A stretch of DNA of 64,000 nucleotides. Origin: Humibacter sp. RRB41 (GTDB taxonomy: Bacteria > Actinomycetota > Actinomycetes > Actinomycetales > Microbacteriaceae). The notes beneath the pieces were generated by a model. It worked only from the letters and a program-made list of their open reading frames with translations, did no database searches and was not told the DNA's origin. The DNA lies in assembly GCF_022761015.1 (NCBI RefSeq), contig NZ_JAKWJQ010000005.1, forward strand, positions 62,001 through 126,000, in the 5' to 3' direction. The number at the start of each line of letters is the position of its first letter. Within the stretch, counting starts at the first letter, position 1. The position numbers were made by a program, and so were the translations under genes. Positions 56,469 through 64,000 of the stretch are shown here, in pieces.

Positions 56469-57551
56469 TCATCGGGCGGAGTCGGATGCCCAGGTGCGCA
56501 GAAAAGCCGCCGCCGTCTGCACCATCTCGTCGCTGAACTCGTGGCCTGAGGGGAAGAACCGGCCGTCGTATCCGTCGACCCGTTCGAGCAGGTGGTGGGC
56601 ATCGCGCATGCCGTCGAGGGGAAAGAGCTCGTCGGTTTCGCCGTACAACGCGAGCAGCCGACGCGGGGAACCAACGGTCGCCAGCTCCGGCCACTCCCTG
56701 AACCGCGCCAGTCCCGGGCTGTGCAGGAGCCACGAGTGGGTCTCCATGTACCGCGGCATGAGGGAGGCGAACGTCGCCATCATGCATGCGATCACGACGG
56801 CGCCGACGCGATCATCGAGCGCGCCGAGCATGTGGGCCCTGCCACCTCCTCCCGAGAAGCCGATGGCGGCGATGCGGCTGGAGTCCACGTCGGGAAGGCC
56901 GGCGAGCAGGTCGAGAGCGACGAGGTCATCCGCGAGCACCATGCCTGCGAAGGTCTGGCCGAGCGAACCTGCGATCTTCGCGAGCACGTCTTCGTGTGCA
57001 CTCGAGATCGTGTCGAAGACCTCGTCGTCGGTCGGAACGTGGCGCTGAGCCGCCCACCACGTGCGCTGGGCGGCCAGCGTGTGTGCGAGTTTCAGGGGCG
57101 GATCGGAGAGGTCGAAGCGACGACTCGCCCACGAGAACGTGTCATGCGCGAGCACGACGAATCCACTGCGGGCCAAGGCAAGTGCAAGAGGGATGCTCTC
57201 GCCCGAGCCATCCGTGACGAGTGCCTCGGCCCCCACCGATCGGCGTCCGCCGTGCGGGTGCAGCGCGAGAACCCCCGGCAGGCTGTCGCCGGATGCGTTG
57301 GGACGCAACTCCCACGCCCGCGTGGGTGGGCCGTAGGGCAACTGCCAGCGCAACTCCGTCGTGCGGATGCCGTCGGCCGAGACGGACGAGGCGACGCGCT
57401 CGACATCCGGCGTAGGGAATCGTCGTCGCAAGCCGAGCACGTCGGCGAGTTGCTGAGACGCCGGATCGCCGGCGACGAAGGCGTCGGCCGCGAGCGCGTG
57501 CTCGGGCCAGCCTTCGTAGCCGGCGATCGGTGATGCGGTGGGTCGGATCAT
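56469..57551 (-). CDS. Alpha/beta hydrolase, acetyl esterase-like
   Basis: A 360-residue hydrolase with nucleophile Ser in IAAIGFSGGGGRAHML (Gly-x-Ser-x-Gly), a probable Asp in LALYGETDELFPLDG and His in FFPSGHEFSDEM. An N-terminal extension and LALHPHGGRRSVG (oxyanion region) match the large acetyl-xylan-esterase-like group rather than true dienelactone hydrolases. Its ATG overlaps the binding protein's stop (ATGA at 57548-57551). Without a signal peptide it is cytoplasmic and would remove acyl groups from imported sugars before the GH106-like enzyme acts. Confidence 0.82.
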   Translation of the reverse strand: MIRPTASPIAGYEGWPEHALAADAFVAGDPASQQLADVLGLRRRFPTPDVERVASSVSADGIRTTELRWQLPYGPPTRAWELRPNASGDSLPGVLALHPHGGRRSVGAEALVTDGSGESIPLALALARSGFVVLAHDTFSWASRRFDLSDPPLKLAHTLAAQRTWWAAQRHVPTDDEVFDTISSAHEDVLAKIAGSLGQTFAGMVLADDLVALDLLAGLPDVDSSRIAAIGFSGGGGRAHMLGALDDRVGAVVIACMMATFASLMPRYMETHSWLLHSPGLARFREWPELATVGSPRRLLALYGETDELFPLDGMRDAHHLLERVDGYDGRFFPSGHEFSDEMVQTAAAFLRTWASDSAR

Positions 57552-58888
57552 GCCGCCGAGTCGATCAACCCCTGCACCTCGGTCTTGAACGCCGTCGCCG
57601 CGTCGGCAGGCTTCGCCCGGCCGAAGATCACGTCTTGCGTATGGCGCTGAAGGACGGTGGCGACGGTGCTGGTGCCCTTCGGCGGCACCGGCGGCACCCA
57701 CTTGATCTCGCTCTTGATGTCTTCGAGGTACTTGACACCCTGCTGGTCGGTCGCCGAGAGCATGGGCTTGACCACGGCGAGCACCTTCGGGTTCACCGGG
57801 ACGCCGCGCTCGGCCAACTGCAGCTTGGCGGACGACGTGTCGTTGAGGAAGTAGTTGATGATCCCGCCTGCCTGAGCGGGGTACTTCGTCTGCGAGCCGA
57901 TCGACCAGTACATCGACGGCTTGTAATACACACCGTTCTTGGTCGCCGCGCCGGCGATGCTCGGCGGACGCAGCAGCACGAGGTCTCCGCCGTTGTTCTG
58001 CTGATACGCCGTGACCTGGTTGCTCCACATCCATCCGAGCGCGAGCTTGTTGGTGCCGAACAGGGTCTGCTCCAGGGCGGCGGACACATCGGTGGTGAAC
58101 TGGTCGGGAGTCGGCCCGTCGCCGGCGTCGAAGAATTTCTTGACCATGGTGAACCAGCTCGCCAGGTTGCCCGTTGTGAATCCGAGCTTGCCCTTGTCGG
58201 TGTAGAGCTGTTGTCCGTGCTGGTGCAGCCAGAGCTGCAGGTCCTGATCGCTGCTCTGCCAGCTCGACCCTGTGAATGCTCCGCCCGATCCTTTCTTGAG
58301 CTTCTGGCAGATGTCGAGATAGTCGTCCCAGGTCCACGTCTTGTCGTCGGGAACGTCGACGCCCGCCTTGTCGAACAGCGTCTTGTTCGCCGCGATGCCA
58401 TAGGCGTTGTTGCCGGTCGGGATGCCGTACAGCTTGCCGTCCAGCGTTCCGGCGGCCAACGACGACTTGAGCGGCGTGAGGTCGATGCTCGCCACCTTCG
58501 ACATGTCCAGCAGTGCACCGCGTCCGCCGTATTCGGCGATATACGCCTGGTCCATCTGGATGACGTCTGGCTCGGTCTGCCCGGCCACCTGGGTCGAGAG
58601 CTTCGTCCAGTACGTCGCCCACTGACCAGGAGCCTGATCGACGGTGACCTTCGAATGGGCCTGGGTGTAGGCCTGGATGATCTTGTCCGTGTAGGCGGAT
58701 CTCACCGGGTTGGTCCACCACTCGAAGTTCAGCGTCGCCTTCTTGAAGGCGTCGCCTGCTGCGGCGGTCGATGACGCCCCGCCTGCGCTCGGTGTGGCGG
58801 AGGTTCCGCACCCGGCGAGCAGGAATGTGGTGCCGATACCGGTCAACGCGAGCGCACCGAATTGGCGCCGCGAGAGCTGCTGTGACAT
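57548..58888 (-). CDS. Sugar-binding lipoprotein with Tat-type signal
   Basis: A 446-residue family-1 solute-binding protein. The N-terminus MSQQLSRRQFGALALTGIG holds a twin-arginine motif (SRRQFGAL), followed by the lipobox LLAGCGTS, so export by the Tat system with lipid anchoring is likely. The mature part has ATLNFEWWTNPVRSAYTDKIIQAY and GKLYGIPTGNNAYG. The ATG at 58888 has AAGGAGG eight bases upstream. No permease gene is present in its operon. The first 11 residues and the ribosome-binding region are nearly identical to those of another gene starting at 63969. Confidence 0.93.
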   Translation of the reverse strand: MSQQLSRRQFGALALTGIGTTFLLAGCGTSATPSAGGASSTAAAGDAFKKATLNFEWWTNPVRSAYTDKIIQAYTQAHSKVTVDQAPGQWATYWTKLSTQVAGQTEPDVIQMDQAYIAEYGGRGALLDMSKVASIDLTPLKSSLAAGTLDGKLYGIPTGNNAYGIAANKTLFDKAGVDVPDDKTWTWDDYLDICQKLKKGSGGAFTGSSWQSSDQDLQLWLHQHGQQLYTDKGKLGFTTGNLASWFTMVKKFFDAGDGPTPDQFTTDVSAALEQTLFGTNKLALGWMWSNQVTAYQQNNGGDLVLLRPPSIAGAATKNGVYYKPSMYWSIGSQTKYPAQAGGIINYFLNDTSSAKLQLAERGVPVNPKVLAVVKPMLSATDQQGVKYLEDIKSEIKWVPPVPPKGTSTVATVLQRHTQDVIFGRAKPADAATAFKTEVQGLIDSAA

Positions 58889-58919
58889 GTGGCCTCCTTG
58901 CCATGCTGTGTTCACGACG

Positions 58920-59012
58920 GGGAAACGCTTTCCCGTGCTCGTGTGCCCCACATTATGGTGACCGTTTCGACCGTGTCAAGGGTTCGGGGGCACATTCAGA
59001 AATCGCTTTCTG
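58920..59012 (-). promoter_or_regulatory. Promoter flanked by two LacI-type operators
   Basis: On the minus strand TTGACA (58979-58974) and CATAAT (58957-58952), 16 bases apart, form a near-consensus promoter. GGGAAACGCTTTCC (58920-58933) lies downstream of it and CAGAAATCGCTTTCTG (58997-59012, exact 6-bp arms) upstream. Both fit the LacI/GalR pattern centred on CG. Confidence 0.65.
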
Positions 59013-59111: not shown

Positions 59112-62100
59112 CTACCCTGAGACTTTCAGGGTGAGCGGCCGGCTCGACGTCGAACCGAACGAGTCCGTGAGTACGGCGACGATCTGGTGGTGACCTGGAG
59201 TGAGGCCGGTCAACGTCGTCGTGACTTTCTGAGCGCCCGGCGTGCCCGCCGTGAGCATCTGCTGATCGGCGAGGACCCCGTCGACATAAAGCTGGTATCC
59301 GGTTGCGTTCGTTCCCCACCACATGTTCGTAGTCACGGTCGTCGTCGACGTTCCGGCGTAGCCGTCATCGCTGACAACGGGCGGGCCAGGGTTTGCATCG
59401 GTGACGTCCACCGTGACCGACGTCGTCCCCGTCTGCCCGGCGCTGTTACTGAGCACCCCCGTGTACACGTAGCGACCGTTCGGCTGCCCCTCGATCGCGA
59501 CGGACGCGGACTGCGGCTGGTCGCCGTTCGCGAGCAGTGGCTCGCTGTAGATAAGGGTGTCGTCGCGGTAGAGCGAGTACTTCGTGGCGTTGCTGCCCCA
59601 CCAGTTGTTGAGCTGCACGGTGTAATAGCCGTCGGCCAGGCCCGTCTCCCAGCCCTGAGTCGTCGAGAGCGATGCCTGAGCGGGCCGGGAACTCTGCTGC
59701 ACGTTCACGCCATAGCCCACGCGAACGTTGTCGACCAGTTCGGTTCCATAGTTGCTGCTGTTGGCGTAATACGAGATGCGGCTGATCCCCGTCATCGACG
59801 TGCGGAACGCGGCGTCGGCGACGAGCTCGGCTCCGTCGACGTAGAGGTCGTACGTCTGGTTCACGGTGTCGATAACGAGCGCAAGGTGATACCAGTGTCC
59901 CGTCGTGTATGCACCGACGGTTGCCAGCGACGTGCCCTCGTACGCCTCGATGGATCCCTTCGTCGTGGCGACGGCGACGCTGGGCGTCGAACTCGTGCCG
60001 TAGATGTAGGGCGCGCTGAAGTAGTCCGCCTTGTTCGCCGCAGGATCGTCGGTGCGCTGCACGTCGGCTTCAACGGTCACCAGCCCCTTCAGCGGCGTGG
60101 CGAAGTCCAGGTCGGCGTTCGTGCTTCCGCTGTTCGTCGTGCGTGTGACCTGAAGCGAACGATTGGCGCCCGGAGCGTCGGTGATGACGTCCACCCCGCC
60201 TCCGGAGGTCGAGGTGGTCCAGCCGTCCGTGCCGGTGGTCAACGGACCATCGGGAATCGACGTGAAGTCGCTCGTCAGAAGCACGGTTCCCGATGTGGTC
60301 GCCATCAGGAGCGTCGGCGAGGTCGTGGTCTCGGCGATCTCGATCGGGCCGGGTGAGACGCTGGCGTTCCGGTAGCCGCTGAGCGAGGCCGTCAGCGTGT
60401 AGCCTCCTCCCGGGCCGAGGGCAGGGAAGTTGTAGTCGCCGTCGCTGTCCGTGGTGGTGGTCGCCACCGTGACGGCGCCCTTGCTGAGCGTCACGCGCGC
60501 ACCATCCAACGGCTTCGCGTGATCGTCGTCCACCGCTCCCTCGAGAGCGCCGGTGGTCGCCGTTGAGGTGAGGGAGATGTCGAAGCGCGTGCTGTCGCCA
60601 TTCGCGACGTTCACGGTCGAAGACACCGCTTTATACCCCGTCTTGGATGCTGTCACCGTCGCGCCCGAGGTGAAGGGCACATTCGGCACCACGTAATATC
60701 CGTTGTCGTCCGTCGTCGTCGCGAACGTGGTTCCCGCAGCCGACACAGACACGGCGACACCGCTCAGCGGGCTGCCGGAGGCGGAGGTGATCGTTCCGTC
60801 GATCGCTTCTGTTGTCGCGCCGGGCGCGGTCGAGTACTCGAACGCCCCGATATCGGCTGCACCGTTGTAGAGCTGGTCTCCTGCGTAGTCTGTGCCGCCG
60901 TTATCGGTGACGTCGGTCCCGGTGTCGATGAGGGCGGATCCGCCCAGCGGAGCATAGGCGTCGGCAGTCGCCAACGCCGGTCCGGATGTCGCTGTGCCGT
61001 ACGGGCCGGTCACGTCAGGGTCCGTGAATCGCGCGTCTCCGGTGACCGGTGACGAGTCCGCTGCGGGAACGGTCGCGGCTGGTCCCCCGTAGTAGTTGTT
61101 CTGGTAGGCGATGCTCGATGCGGTCGGCATGGCGACGGCGGCCTGTGTCGAATAGAACGCGTTGTCCGTGAACGCGTAATTGCTCGCCGTCATCAGCCAC
61201 GCCATCGAGGTCGCGGTGTTGTAGAACGTGTTGCCGTAGATCTGAGCGGTCGCACTGGCGGCCGAACCGAGCTGCATCGCGTACTTGGAGTTGTTCGCGA
61301 CGACGTTGTACCGCCAGACGCTGCTTCCGAAGTGGATCTGATAGTCGAGGAATCCGACGTCGTTGTTGTGCAGGTAGTTGTACTGCACGGTCATGTTCGT
61401 CGTTCCCATGTCAGGGTCGATGGCGTTCGAATCGCCGCCGCCGGCCTTGACAGTGGTGCCCATGACCTCGTTGTGCTCCGTGACGACGTTGTCGGAATAG
61501 TCGTACTCGATGCCCGACGTGCCGGTGCGATCCACCAGGTTGTCGCGCACGACGGCGCCGCGCACGCTGTTGAGGAGCATGCCGTTGGCGCCGTACTCCG
61601 TGCCGTTCTGGGTGATGTAGTTGTTCTCGACGGTGAGATCGGTGAACGGCGCGTAGTCCGGGTCATCGGCCGACGCGCGGGTGCCCCACCCGGTGGCGAC
61701 CGCCCCTGCATTCGTGCCGGCGTACTGCTTGGTCACGATGCCGCCGAACGAGGTGTTCTCGATCTTCGAGTTCTCGATGGTCATGTCGTTCAAGATGGTC
61801 GGTTGACCCGGTGCCGCCTCATCCGGCACTGTCGTCTCGAAGACGATGCCGCCGGTGTTCTTCATGCCGTCCCAGCCGGTGTCGAACGTTATCCCCGGCT
61901 TGTTGCCCGAGGTGCTGCCACCCATCCAGTCGACCTCGCCGGTGACGTCATGAACGTAGACGCCGTCGATCGTGAAGCCGGAGAGCGTCTGCTCGTCGTC
62001 GCCGCCGACGAAGATGCCGCGGAAGTCGCCGAGGTTGGTCCCGTCCGCGCCCGCGGACGGGTTGTCGTTGGTGACCTCGATGTTCTCGATCGTCCAGTAC

Positions 62101-62498
62101 TGCTGATTGAAGAGCTCCACGGCGTTTGCGACCTGACCGGCACCATCGACGCGCGGCTGCGCGCCAGAGCCATAGTCGCCGATCGTGATGTTCGCCGTGG
62201 CATCGCCGGAGCCCTTGGGCCACAGGGTGGTGCCCGACCACTCTGACCCGTCCGCCAGCAGGATGCGGTCGCCGGCCTGGAACGTGGTCGCGTCCACCTT
62301 CGCCAGCGACTTCCACGGCGCAGACGAGCTCGTCCCCTGATTGCTGTCGCTACCGAGCTGCGAGTCGACGTAGTACGTCGTTCCCGCTGCGGCGGCACGA
62401 GCGGGCGGCGGCGCAGTGAACGCCAGAGCCGTTCCAACGAGTGCGACCGCACACGCGGTGGCCGTCGCGCGAATCGCCGTGCCGATGAGGTGCTTCAT
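59112..62498 (-). CDS. Large secreted right-handed beta-helix protein with accessory domains (probable polysaccharide lyase or hydrolase)
   Basis: A 1128-residue secreted protein. Residues 1-37 are a signal peptide (ends ARAAAA). About 40-550 is a parallel beta-helix beginning GTTYYVDSQLGSDSNQGTS, the usual start of pectate-lyase-like proteins. About 560-640 and 645-730 are two carboxypeptidase-regulatory-like beta-sandwiches (SASGSPLSGVAVSV, DDDHAKPLDGARVTL). About 735-930 is a concanavalin-like (LamG-type) domain (HWYHLALVIDTVNQTYDLYVDG), and about 940-1128 two Ig-like repeats with LNNWWGSNATKYSLY and TTNMWWGTNATGYQLY. The ATG at 62498 follows AAGGGG. Catalytic type cannot be read, but context suggests attack on a pectin-like polymer. 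It is monocistronic, with a LacI-controlled promoter. Confidence 0.85.
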   Translation of the reverse strand: MKHLIGTAIRATATACAVALVGTALAFTAPPPARAAAAGTTYYVDSQLGSDSNQGTSSSAPWKSLAKVDATTFQAGDRILLADGSEWSGTTLWPKGSGDATANITIGDYGSGAQPRVDGAGQVANAVELFNQQYWTIENIEVTNDNPSAGADGTNLGDFRGIFVGGDDEQTLSGFTIDGVYVHDVTGEVDWMGGSTSGNKPGITFDTGWDGMKNTGGIVFETTVPDEAAPGQPTILNDMTIENSKIENTSFGGIVTKQYAGTNAGAVATGWGTRASADDPDYAPFTDLTVENNYITQNGTEYGANGMLLNSVRGAVVRDNLVDRTGTSGIEYDYSDNVVTEHNEVMGTTVKAGGGDSNAIDPDMGTTNMTVQYNYLHNNDVGFLDYQIHFGSSVWRYNVVANNSKYAMQLGSAASATAQIYGNTFYNTATSMAWLMTASNYAFTDNAFYSTQAAVAMPTASSIAYQNNYYGGPAATVPAADSSPVTGDARFTDPDVTGPYGTATSGPALATADAYAPLGGSALIDTGTDVTDNGGTDYAGDQLYNGAADIGAFEYSTAPGATTEAIDGTITSASGSPLSGVAVSVSAAGTTFATTTDDNGYYVVPNVPFTSGATVTASKTGYKAVSSTVNVANGDSTRFDISLTSTATTGALEGAVDDDHAKPLDGARVTLSKGAVTVATTTTDSDGDYNFPALGPGGGYTLTASLSGYRNASVSPGPIEIAETTTSPTLLMATTSGTVLLTSDFTSIPDGPLTTGTDGWTTSTSGGGVDVITDAPGANRSLQVTRTTNSGSTNADLDFATPLKGLVTVEADVQRTDDPAANKADYFSAPYIYGTSSTPSVAVATTKGSIEAYEGTSLATVGAYTTGHWYHLALVIDTVNQTYDLYVDGAELVADAAFRTSMTGISRISYYANSSNYGTELVDNVRVGYGVNVQQSSRPAQASLSTTQGWETGLADGYYTVQLNNWWGSNATKYSLYRDDTLIYSEPLLANGDQPQSASVAIEGQPNGRYVYTGVLSNSAGQTGTTSVTVDVTDANPGPPVVSDDGYAGTSTTTVTTNMWWGTNATGYQLYVDGVLADQQMLTAGTPGAQKVTTTLTGLTPGHHQIVAVLTDSFGSTSSRPLTLKVSG

Positions 62499-62625: not shown

Positions 62626-62655
62626 ACATTAGTGATCGTTCACTATTTCTGTCAA
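62626..62655 (-). promoter_or_regulatory. Promoter with lac-like operator in the spacer (beta-helix gene)
   Basis: On the minus strand TTGACA (62655-62650) and TAATGT (62631-62626) are 18 bases apart. The 14-base palindrome AGTGATCGTTCACT (62631-62644) fills most of the spacer, so a bound repressor must exclude RNA polymerase. The reverse complement of this exact 14-mer recurs at 63875-63888. Confidence 0.8.
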
Positions 62656-62704
62656 CGGTTGCGGCAAGAACGCGAGCGCGATGACGCAGGAGCTTCGCCG
62701 TGGC

Positions 62705-63733
62705 TCACCGTGGGGCAGGTCCGCTCGACCCGCGCGCGATGAGCCTGCCCATGACCTGGTGCTCGAAGCTCGGAGGTTCCCGATCCTCGACCATTGCGAT
62801 CAGCTCGAGCATCGCCTGCCGTCCGATCAGCTCCAGGTTCAGCTCCACGGTCGTGAGGGTCGGGGAGAGGAATCGTCCGATCTCCTCGTTGTCCCAGCCG
62901 ACGACGCTGACATCGTCGGGAACGCGGATGCCGCGATCCTGAAGGCCGCGGATGACCCCGAACGCGACGAAGTCGTTGGCGGCGACGATGGCCGTCACCC
63001 CCGAGTTCGCCGGGAGATCGCGCCCTGCCTGGTAGCCGGACTCGACGGACCAGTCGCCCCCGACCACGCCGTAAGACTCCAATCCGAGTCTGTCGACGGT
63101 CTCGCGATAGACGGTGCGCCGATTGCGGGCCGACGTCCAATCCTGATTGCCTGCGACGTGCAGAAATCGACGATGTCCCAGATCGGCCAGATGCTGCACG
63201 ACTTCCGCTGCGAACGCTCCGTCCGCGAAGGCACCGGTCGAGCGCATCTTCTCGTCGTATTGGCCCATCACCTGCATGGGCACGGATGACGCCGGGAGCG
63301 GCGAGAGCATATCGCCGAGCGGGGTGAACGACAGGATGCCCTCCACTCGCTCGCTGTCCATCAGAGTGAGGACTCGTTGTCGGCGGCGAGCTTCATCGCC
63401 TTCAAGGCTGACCACGTCGATCTGATATCCAGCCTCGTGGGCAGCGGATGCAGCGCCGCGGAACGGTGTCGGCACGAAGTAGGTCAGCTCGGGAAGAACG
63501 ATCGCGATGCGATTCGTTCGCCGGGTGCGCATCGACCTGGCGATGAGATCCGGCCGATAATCCAGGTTGCGGATCGCCTTCTCGACCTTGTCAACCGTGG
63601 CGGGTTTCAGACCACCGTTGAATCGCAGGTAGCGCGAGACCGTCTGATGGGACACCCCGGCGAGTTCGGCTACCTGCATGATGGTCACGCGTTTGCGTCG
63701 AGGTGTGCCGGAGTCTGCGTCGTCGCTCTGCAT
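62705..63733 (-). CDS. LacI family regulator of the polysaccharide locus
   Basis: A 342-residue repressor. The helix-turn-helix VTIMQVAELAGVSHQTVSRYLRFNGG resembles E. coli LacI (VSYQTVSR) at the base-contacting positions. The sugar-binding core covers about residues 75-335 (IAIVLPELTYFVPTPFRGAASAAHEAGY, VSVVGWDNEEIGRFLSPTLTTVE). The start is the ATG at 63733 after GGAGGGACAGGA; the frame is open for 45 more codons upstream without family sequence. Identical operator copies flank the gene, one at the beta-helix promoter and one between this gene and the next binding protein. It should control both neighbours and itself. Confidence 0.93.
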   Translation of the reverse strand: MQSDDADSGTPRRKRVTIMQVAELAGVSHQTVSRYLRFNGGLKPATVDKVEKAIRNLDYRPDLIARSMRTRRTNRIAIVLPELTYFVPTPFRGAASAAHEAGYQIDVVSLEGDEARRRQRVLTLMDSERVEGILSFTPLGDMLSPLPASSVPMQVMGQYDEKMRSTGAFADGAFAAEVVQHLADLGHRRFLHVAGNQDWTSARNRRTVYRETVDRLGLESYGVVGGDWSVESGYQAGRDLPANSGVTAIVAANDFVAFGVIRGLQDRGIRVPDDVSVVGWDNEEIGRFLSPTLTTVELNLELIGRQAMLELIAMVEDREPPSFEHQVMGRLIARGSSGPAPR

Positions 63734-63874
63734 TCCTGTCCCTCCGCCTGTGGCCTCCCTGCAGAAGCAGGCGCCGATCGCTCGATTGCCCGAGGGCTGC
63801 AGAGCCGTTCTACGTGGCCGCACTCGCGTCGTAGGAACCCTATCGCCAGTCGGCAGCACTATTTGCACTCCGAT

Positions 63875-63928
63875 AGTGAACGATCACTTTTTCATGCTAA
63901 CGTGTCTGCGATCGGGAAAGCGGTTACC
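63875..63928. promoter_or_regulatory. Operator cluster between lacI and the second binding protein
   Basis: AGTGAACGATCACT (63875-63888) is the exact reverse complement of the site at 62631-62644. A second LacI/GalR-like site, GGAAAGCGGTTACC (63915-63928), resembles that at 58920-58933. A possible -10 (TAACGT, 63898-63903) lies between them for the plus-strand gene at 63969. Confidence 0.7.
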
Positions 63929-63968: not shown

Positions 63969-64000
63969 ATGTCACAGCAGCTCTCCCGGCGTCAGTTCGG
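63969..64000 (+). CDS. Solute-binding protein, N-terminal fragment (paralogue of 57548-58888)
   Basis: The first ten codons and two bases of a gene that runs out of the window: MSQQLSRRQF, with the same twin-arginine start as the binding protein at 57548-58888. AAGGAGG precedes the ATG by the same distance. The 32 bases 63954-63985 are identical to 58903-58872 read on the minus strand, showing a recent duplication or gene conversion. Being at the head of a plus-strand operon, it may be followed by the permeases missing from the first copy's operon, but that lies outside the window. Confidence 0.85.
   Translation, partial: MSQQLSRRQF

Follow-up and report, generated by a model that had tools for sequence, protein, structure and literature searches.

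The question raised by this locus is whether two copies of one short palindrome-like sequence, lying on either side of a gene for a LacI-family repressor, are the operators of that repressor, and which genes would be controlled through them. A first-pass annotation of the 64,000-nucleotide stretch of Humibacter sp. RRB41 DNA that holds them (the window) had assigned the pair to the adjacent LacI. We find the core of this interpretation well supported by comparative evidence. Our preferred reading, to which we give a probability of roughly 0.88, is a local and autoregulated LacI-family repressor that would act by promoter occlusion. Its predicted control very likely covers lacI itself, the gene of a secreted, sugar-cleaving beta-helix enzyme and the uptake gene for a solute-binding protein, SBP2.

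The repressor, its probable operator pair and the predicted targets

The lacI gene (62705-63733, minus strand) encodes a protein of 342 amino acids, in which Pfam recognizes the LacI N-terminal helix-turn-helix (PF00356, 52.6 bits) and a periplasmic-binding-like sensor domain (PF13377, 119.2 bits), both above cut-off. Its translation contains the recognition helix SHQTVSR that had been claimed for it. With 183.1 bits against a cut-off of 340, it is not a lac-repressor ortholog by NCBIfam PRK09526, which we take to be the lac repressor model.

The 14-mer AGTGAACGATCACT was found by pattern search at 62631-62644 on the minus strand (operator 1) and at 63875-63888 on the plus strand (operator 2). 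Both positions are as first annotated, and the copies are exact reverse complements of each other. Its description as a palindrome needs qualification, as the 14-mer agrees with its own other strand at 12 of 14 positions and is imperfect at two. The copies flank lacI at a centre-to-centre distance of 1244 bases, each pointing at its predicted target (the beta-helix gene and SBP2, respectively). Allowing up to two mismatches, the window holds four strand matches, which are these two sites read on both strands; the mean of shuffled windows was 0.36, and one of 100 shuffles reached four. A CG-centred palindrome near the regulator's own gene is a trait of the family, and it is present here by sequence and position, as it is in the relatives.

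Operator 1 had been placed in the spacer of a TTGACA/TAATGT promoter of the beta-helix gene, and the letters bear this out. The −35 hexamer TTGACA (62650-62655, minus strand) is invariant in three genomes, and the −10 hexamer TAATGT (62626-62631, minus strand) reads TAAAGT in one of them (G003). On the minus strand the arrangement is TTGACA-GAAAT-AGTGAACGATCAC-TAATGT, with a spacer of 18 bases; the operator takes up 13 of these, and its last T doubles as the opening T of the −10 hexamer. A promoter scan that required at least four of six matches per hexamer omitted this promoter, whose −10 scores three. The beta-helix gene (59112-62498, minus strand; identified by Pfam, with the start ATG at 62498 picked by eye) begins about 130 bases downstream of the operator. 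Operator 2 falls in the interval that separates lacI from the divergently oriented SBP2 gene. It precedes the SBP2 start at 63969 by about 80 bases and the lacI start at 63733 by about 140; no promoter can be read there by sequence.

In the proposed mechanism, a repressor dimer would bind the even palindrome AGTGA(A/T)CG(A/T)TCACT. At operator 1, which occupies most of the −35/−10 spacer, the bound dimer would exclude RNA polymerase from the beta-helix promoter; at operator 2 it would probably repress lacI and SBP2, in both directions. An oligosaccharide freed by the enzymes might then release the repressor.

SBP2 occupies 63969-64000 of the window on the plus strand and continues outside it (L005:1969-3303). 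Genes for BNR_4, DUF6807, a GFO/IDH dehydrogenase and a cupin follow on the same strand and may be cotranscribed with it. A DUF6807 or GFO/IDH gene also lies beside the LacI gene of L149, L160, L161 and L182 (four of nine loci, 13 neighbours scanned). The small regulon first predicted, consisting of the beta-helix gene, lacI and the next binding protein, thus appears incomplete in leaving out these four genes; its named members are favoured by the ortholog sites, the rarity of the operator and the operator core of the clade described below.

Pectin or rhamnogalacturonan as the substrate is unproven, because the beta-helix protein is nearest to lacto-N-biosidases by PDB sequence. A phmmer search of PDB sequences matched five chains, four of them named lacto-N-biosidase and three of the five spanning residues 69-591; enzymes of this kind are classed as GH136. 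The protein scores 58.6 bits against the NCBIfam model LnbX, far below its cut-off of 2500. Nearby genes encode a GH106 alpha-L-rhamnosidase-like ORF, an esterase-like ORF, a heparinase II/III-like protein and a DUF2264 protein, which suggests a complex target glycan, perhaps containing rhamnose, without naming it.

Rarity and conservation of the operator

A scan of the whole genome, which the first-pass annotation had proposed, located the exact operator at this locus and not at random positions. AGTGAWCGWTCACT has two exact places in 3,893,083 bases (3.89 Mb), both flanking this lacI, against about 0.05 expected per genome by chance (estimated with a first-order Markov model of the window's composition); read backwards as a control, it has none in the whole genome. 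If one mismatch is allowed, two more places appear: G000:C1:120651, where two divergent ORFs, one of them TetR-like by eye, meet head to head, and C8:227349, within an ORF. We counted neither as a further target, given the intra-ORF position of one and, at the TetR-like junction, a similar palindrome 53 bases off. Two such palindromes, AGTGACCGTACACT and AGTGTACGATCACT, lie 53 bases apart where a TetR-like ORF adjoins a divergent one (L007:5599-5665) and are perhaps that regulator's own operator pair. At up to two mismatches AGTGAWCGWTCACT has 32 genome places, compared with four for the reversed control; two of the 32 precede further LacI genes of the genome, namely L067 and L083.

We then compared five genomes of the genus, where LacI matches at E<=1e-80 were found in the RRB41 genome, G003 and G004; identity to the two orthologs is 75% and 74%. 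In both G003 and G004 lacI is flanked on either side by a site, so that both places are kept. All three genomes share an identical copy in the beta-helix promoter, 3' of lacI, and the SBP2-side copy departs from AGTGAWCGWTCACT by one base in G003 and likewise by one in G004. At up to one mismatch each of these two genomes has three places, two of them at the LacI locus. G001 and G002 (87% complete), without a LacI ortholog at E<=1e-80, have three scattered places (control one) and none, respectively. When the three ortholog loci were aligned without gaps on the operator, 30 of 35 columns across the beta-helix promoter and its operator were invariant, compared with 25 of 179 around them; promoter and operator together form an island of conservation. 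The operator 2 block gave a weak footprint, with 15 of 35 invariant columns versus 18 of 179 around it and little kept beyond the operator.

To cover a wider clade, a five-row alignment was searched against 398 genomes of the family (6 genomes with a match at E<=1e-95) and 396 of the order (38 genomes at E<=1e-90), with five candidates scored per genome and genomes drawn from a larger group. All 53 distinct matches from family and order formed the clade set, read in stretches of about 4 kb, or 18 kb in one case; L100 and L103 share one genome. The helix SHQTVSR is present in 42 of the 53 loci, and the exact core GTGANCGNTCAC occurs within the locus in 30 of these 42 and is absent in 12; four of the other 11 loci have the core, with no helix read in those four. 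Across the 42 SHQTVSR rows there are 50 exact cores, of which 46 lie upstream of the match start at a distance of no more than 350 bases, and at least two upstream sites occur in 16 loci of the set. Reversing the core in 40 loci (13 of the 53 lacked a helix-turn-helix under the first regular expression) gave 0 exact places versus 50, and 3 versus 68 once one mismatch was allowed. Read on the strand of lacI, the cores have T at NT-2 in 33 cases, C in 8 and A in 9, with A at NT-7 in 39 of the 50. We discarded the asymmetric centre AACGAT as a special feature: it is found in the window sites and three of four ortholog sites, yet 19 of the 50 clade sites have the symmetric ATCGAT.

A first contig search for named close relatives gave none. 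A second, alignment-based search kept 80 named loci out of at least 586 relatives, at 34-59% identity. Among the 80 listed, the core is present in 26 of 28 SHQTVSR rows with a Met hinge (19 of them at most 400 bases upstream), in 17 of 50 other SHQTVSR rows (four upstream) and in neither of two rows without SHQTVSR; the reversed control was 0 in each case. Of those 50, L157 was scored as non-Met but in fact reads ARTM and has the core; no hinge was read in L212. The 53-locus and 80-locus sets overlap in genomes (for example L104/L180 and L125/L184) and are not independent.

A tree of 101 rows (34 of the 53 clade loci, 63 of the 80 named loci and four more, with L016 identical to L195; midpoint root for drawing only) places this LacI in a 63-row group with support 100/97, and 46 of the 63 rows carry the core label. 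The label requires 13 changes on the tree, against a shuffled mean of 34.0, and none of 500 shuffles was as low. Its core-labelled rows belong to 13 named actinobacterial families, so one operator class stands beside LacI relatives across all of them. Scanned stretches contained no core for 17 of the 63 group rows and for all ten rows of the neighbouring group; the remaining 28 tree rows comprise 12 with GTTA, three with GTGA and 13 with neither. Rows without the core may reflect more distant control or drifted operators, or may contradict the reading.

Cumulatively, the sites kept at the orthologs, the absence of any other exact site in the genome and the recurrence of the core beside lacI genes of the clade leave the assignment of LacI to its operators standing. 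Binding, repression, an inducer and autoregulation are what we infer from the sites, their rarity and their conservation among orthologs and clade.

A probable second LacI circuit and the limits of the recognition helix

Another solute-binding protein gene, SBP1 (57548-58888, minus strand; Pfam), is not among the genes that this LacI is predicted to control directly. Its promoter-like TTGACA-N18-TAATGT (58950-58979, minus strand) lies between two palindromes of a second, GAAA-type class, CAGAAAGCGATTTCTG upstream (58997-59012) and GGGAAAGCGTTTCCCC downstream (58919-58934), both read on the minus strand, and the arrangement is the same in G003 and G004. A similar pair stands before two ABC permease genes (L005:7641-7724); both places are paired in G003 and G004. 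After the permeases comes a second LacI gene, with helix SLATASR (L005:9727-10791), whose orthologs show 74% identity in G003, 75% in G004, 73% in G002 and 69% (partial) in G001; G001 and G002 thus have this LacI and lack the first. It would be the natural candidate for the regulator of the GAAA sites. The motif is not confined to the locus: GAAANCGNTTTC has four exact places in the RRB41 genome (control one), two of them in this locus, and AGAAANCGNTTTCT at up to one mismatch has three, four and nine places in the RRB41 genome, G003 and G004, two per genome in this locus. As far as the letters go, the regulon appears to be one of two interlocked LacI-type circuits, with SBP1 and the permeases under the GAAA-type operator.

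Two further observations concern these genes. The G003 ortholog of the SLATASR LacI (G003:C19:98422-99432) contains one internal TAG, and may be inactive or carry a sequence error. SBP1 and SBP2 share near-identical N-termini as well as the bases that immediately precede the start codon; a duplication with divergent promoters is suggested.

The first-pass annotation had drawn on the helix and the half-site for the assignment. GTGA does fit the TVSR code in outline, with Gln and Arg as in E. coli LacI. The identical helix, however, is found elsewhere with a GTTA-class operator: the paralog L062 (G000:C2:17070-18059; 40% identity) reads SHQTVSR and is preceded by two GTTACCGGTAAC palindromes at a distance of 31 bases from each other. 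The helix alone is therefore no proof of the assignment. GTTA-class palindromes accompany 11 SHQTVSR rows (10 distinct proteins), and what sets the classes apart is mostly NT-2 (A/T in GTGA versus C in GTTA, with exceptions on both sides) and also NT-4. As described by Camas et al. (2010, PMC2978694), the TVSR code relates R at AA-20 to G at NT-6, AA-15/16 to NT-5/NT-4 and AA-55 to NT-2, and degeneracies are stated for some recognition classes. After five rows without SHQTVSR were dropped, Arg occupied hinge position 55 in 44 of 47 rows of the GTGA type, in none of 11 of the GTTA type and in 21 of 33 unassigned ones. One reading, which we rate as less likely than not, is that two groups of actinobacterial SHQTVSR LacI proteins read GTGA(W)C and GTTACC, and that residues outside the helix, with position 55 (Arg versus Ala/Val) as first candidate, might switch the class. 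The tree separates all GTTA rows from 46 of the 49 GTGA rows, so shared ancestry by itself could account for the pattern at position 55. Met at hinge position 54 was rejected as a strict switch: it is found in 42 of 47 GTGA rows, but the Leu-hinge loci L122, L135, L127, L128 and L174 (L174 and L135 from the same genome) keep a GTGA operator. Nine Leu-hinge relatives, mostly Arthrobacter-type, showed no clear shared palindrome near the gene.

Alternative readings and comparison with known systems

The sites could be real operators that are bound by, or shared with, another LacI-family paralog. The genome has 42 matches to the LacI helix-turn-helix family, 41 above cut-off, and the candidates include L062, with its identical helix, and the paralogs L067 and L083, with helix SRQTVTR and the related CGTGAACGTTCACG upstream, by which cross-binding with this operator is possible. 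We nonetheless consider this quite improbable: L062 has a GTTACCGGTAAC pair of its own, the operator pair tracks the orthologs of this LacI (with three scattered places and none in the ortholog-less G001 and G002), and the core recurs beside genes of its clade.

DNA looping between both sites across lacI, as in the E. coli lac operon, would agree with two matching operators that flank the gene 1244 bases apart, the 3'-side one being identical in three genomes. Each site, though, is near a gene start that accounts for it, so looping is not needed, and of the 30 SHQTVSR relatives and orthologs with a core, 26 have sites solely upstream in the stretches read. In the PDB alignment, full-length E. 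coli LacI is matched as far as residue 307 of its 360, and the present protein is 342 amino acids long; this gives no sign of a tetramerisation tail, which is probably lacking. Looping is judged very improbable. Functionless chance palindromes, for which the 32 inexact genome places might speak, are a negligible prospect, with two exact sites against 0.05 expected, which lie next to a single LacI gene and have counterparts in two other species, and with an ortholog footprint that already contradicts chance.

The preferred reading, promoter occlusion by the local LacI, supplies a regulator, an operator and a target set for a glycan-use locus, and is directly testable. The pair of one helix with different operators within one genome is a natural test of the recognition code beyond helix residues. 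Overall this is an ordinary local LacI circuit, in which the same helix with two operator classes is mildly surprising. Among open-licence papers, the exact operator strings had no match, and related strings matched only Aeromonas studies by title, none on gene regulation.

The E. coli lac operator has the half-site GTGAGC, an outer base T and, in O1, an extra central base. Like E. coli LacI, the present repressor combines a helix of the form S-x-Q-T-V-S-R with a GTGA half-site; unlike the E. coli operator, its sites have a GTGAAC/GTGATC half-site, an outer A and no extra central base. According to Ravcheev et al. (2014, PMC4052901), LacI-family operators are usually even palindromes centred on CG, and local regulators of the family usually control themselves; the present system resembles the local regulators described there in its CG-centred even palindrome, its sites by the regulator and neighbouring genes, and its carbohydrate targets. 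The pairings AA-20/NT-6, AA-15/16/NT-5/NT-4 and AA-55/NT-2 of the Camas code cited above (PMC2978694) are shared here. The difference from that code is that HQ-TVSR here goes with both GTGA and GTTA classes, a combination that may already be present in its Table S1.
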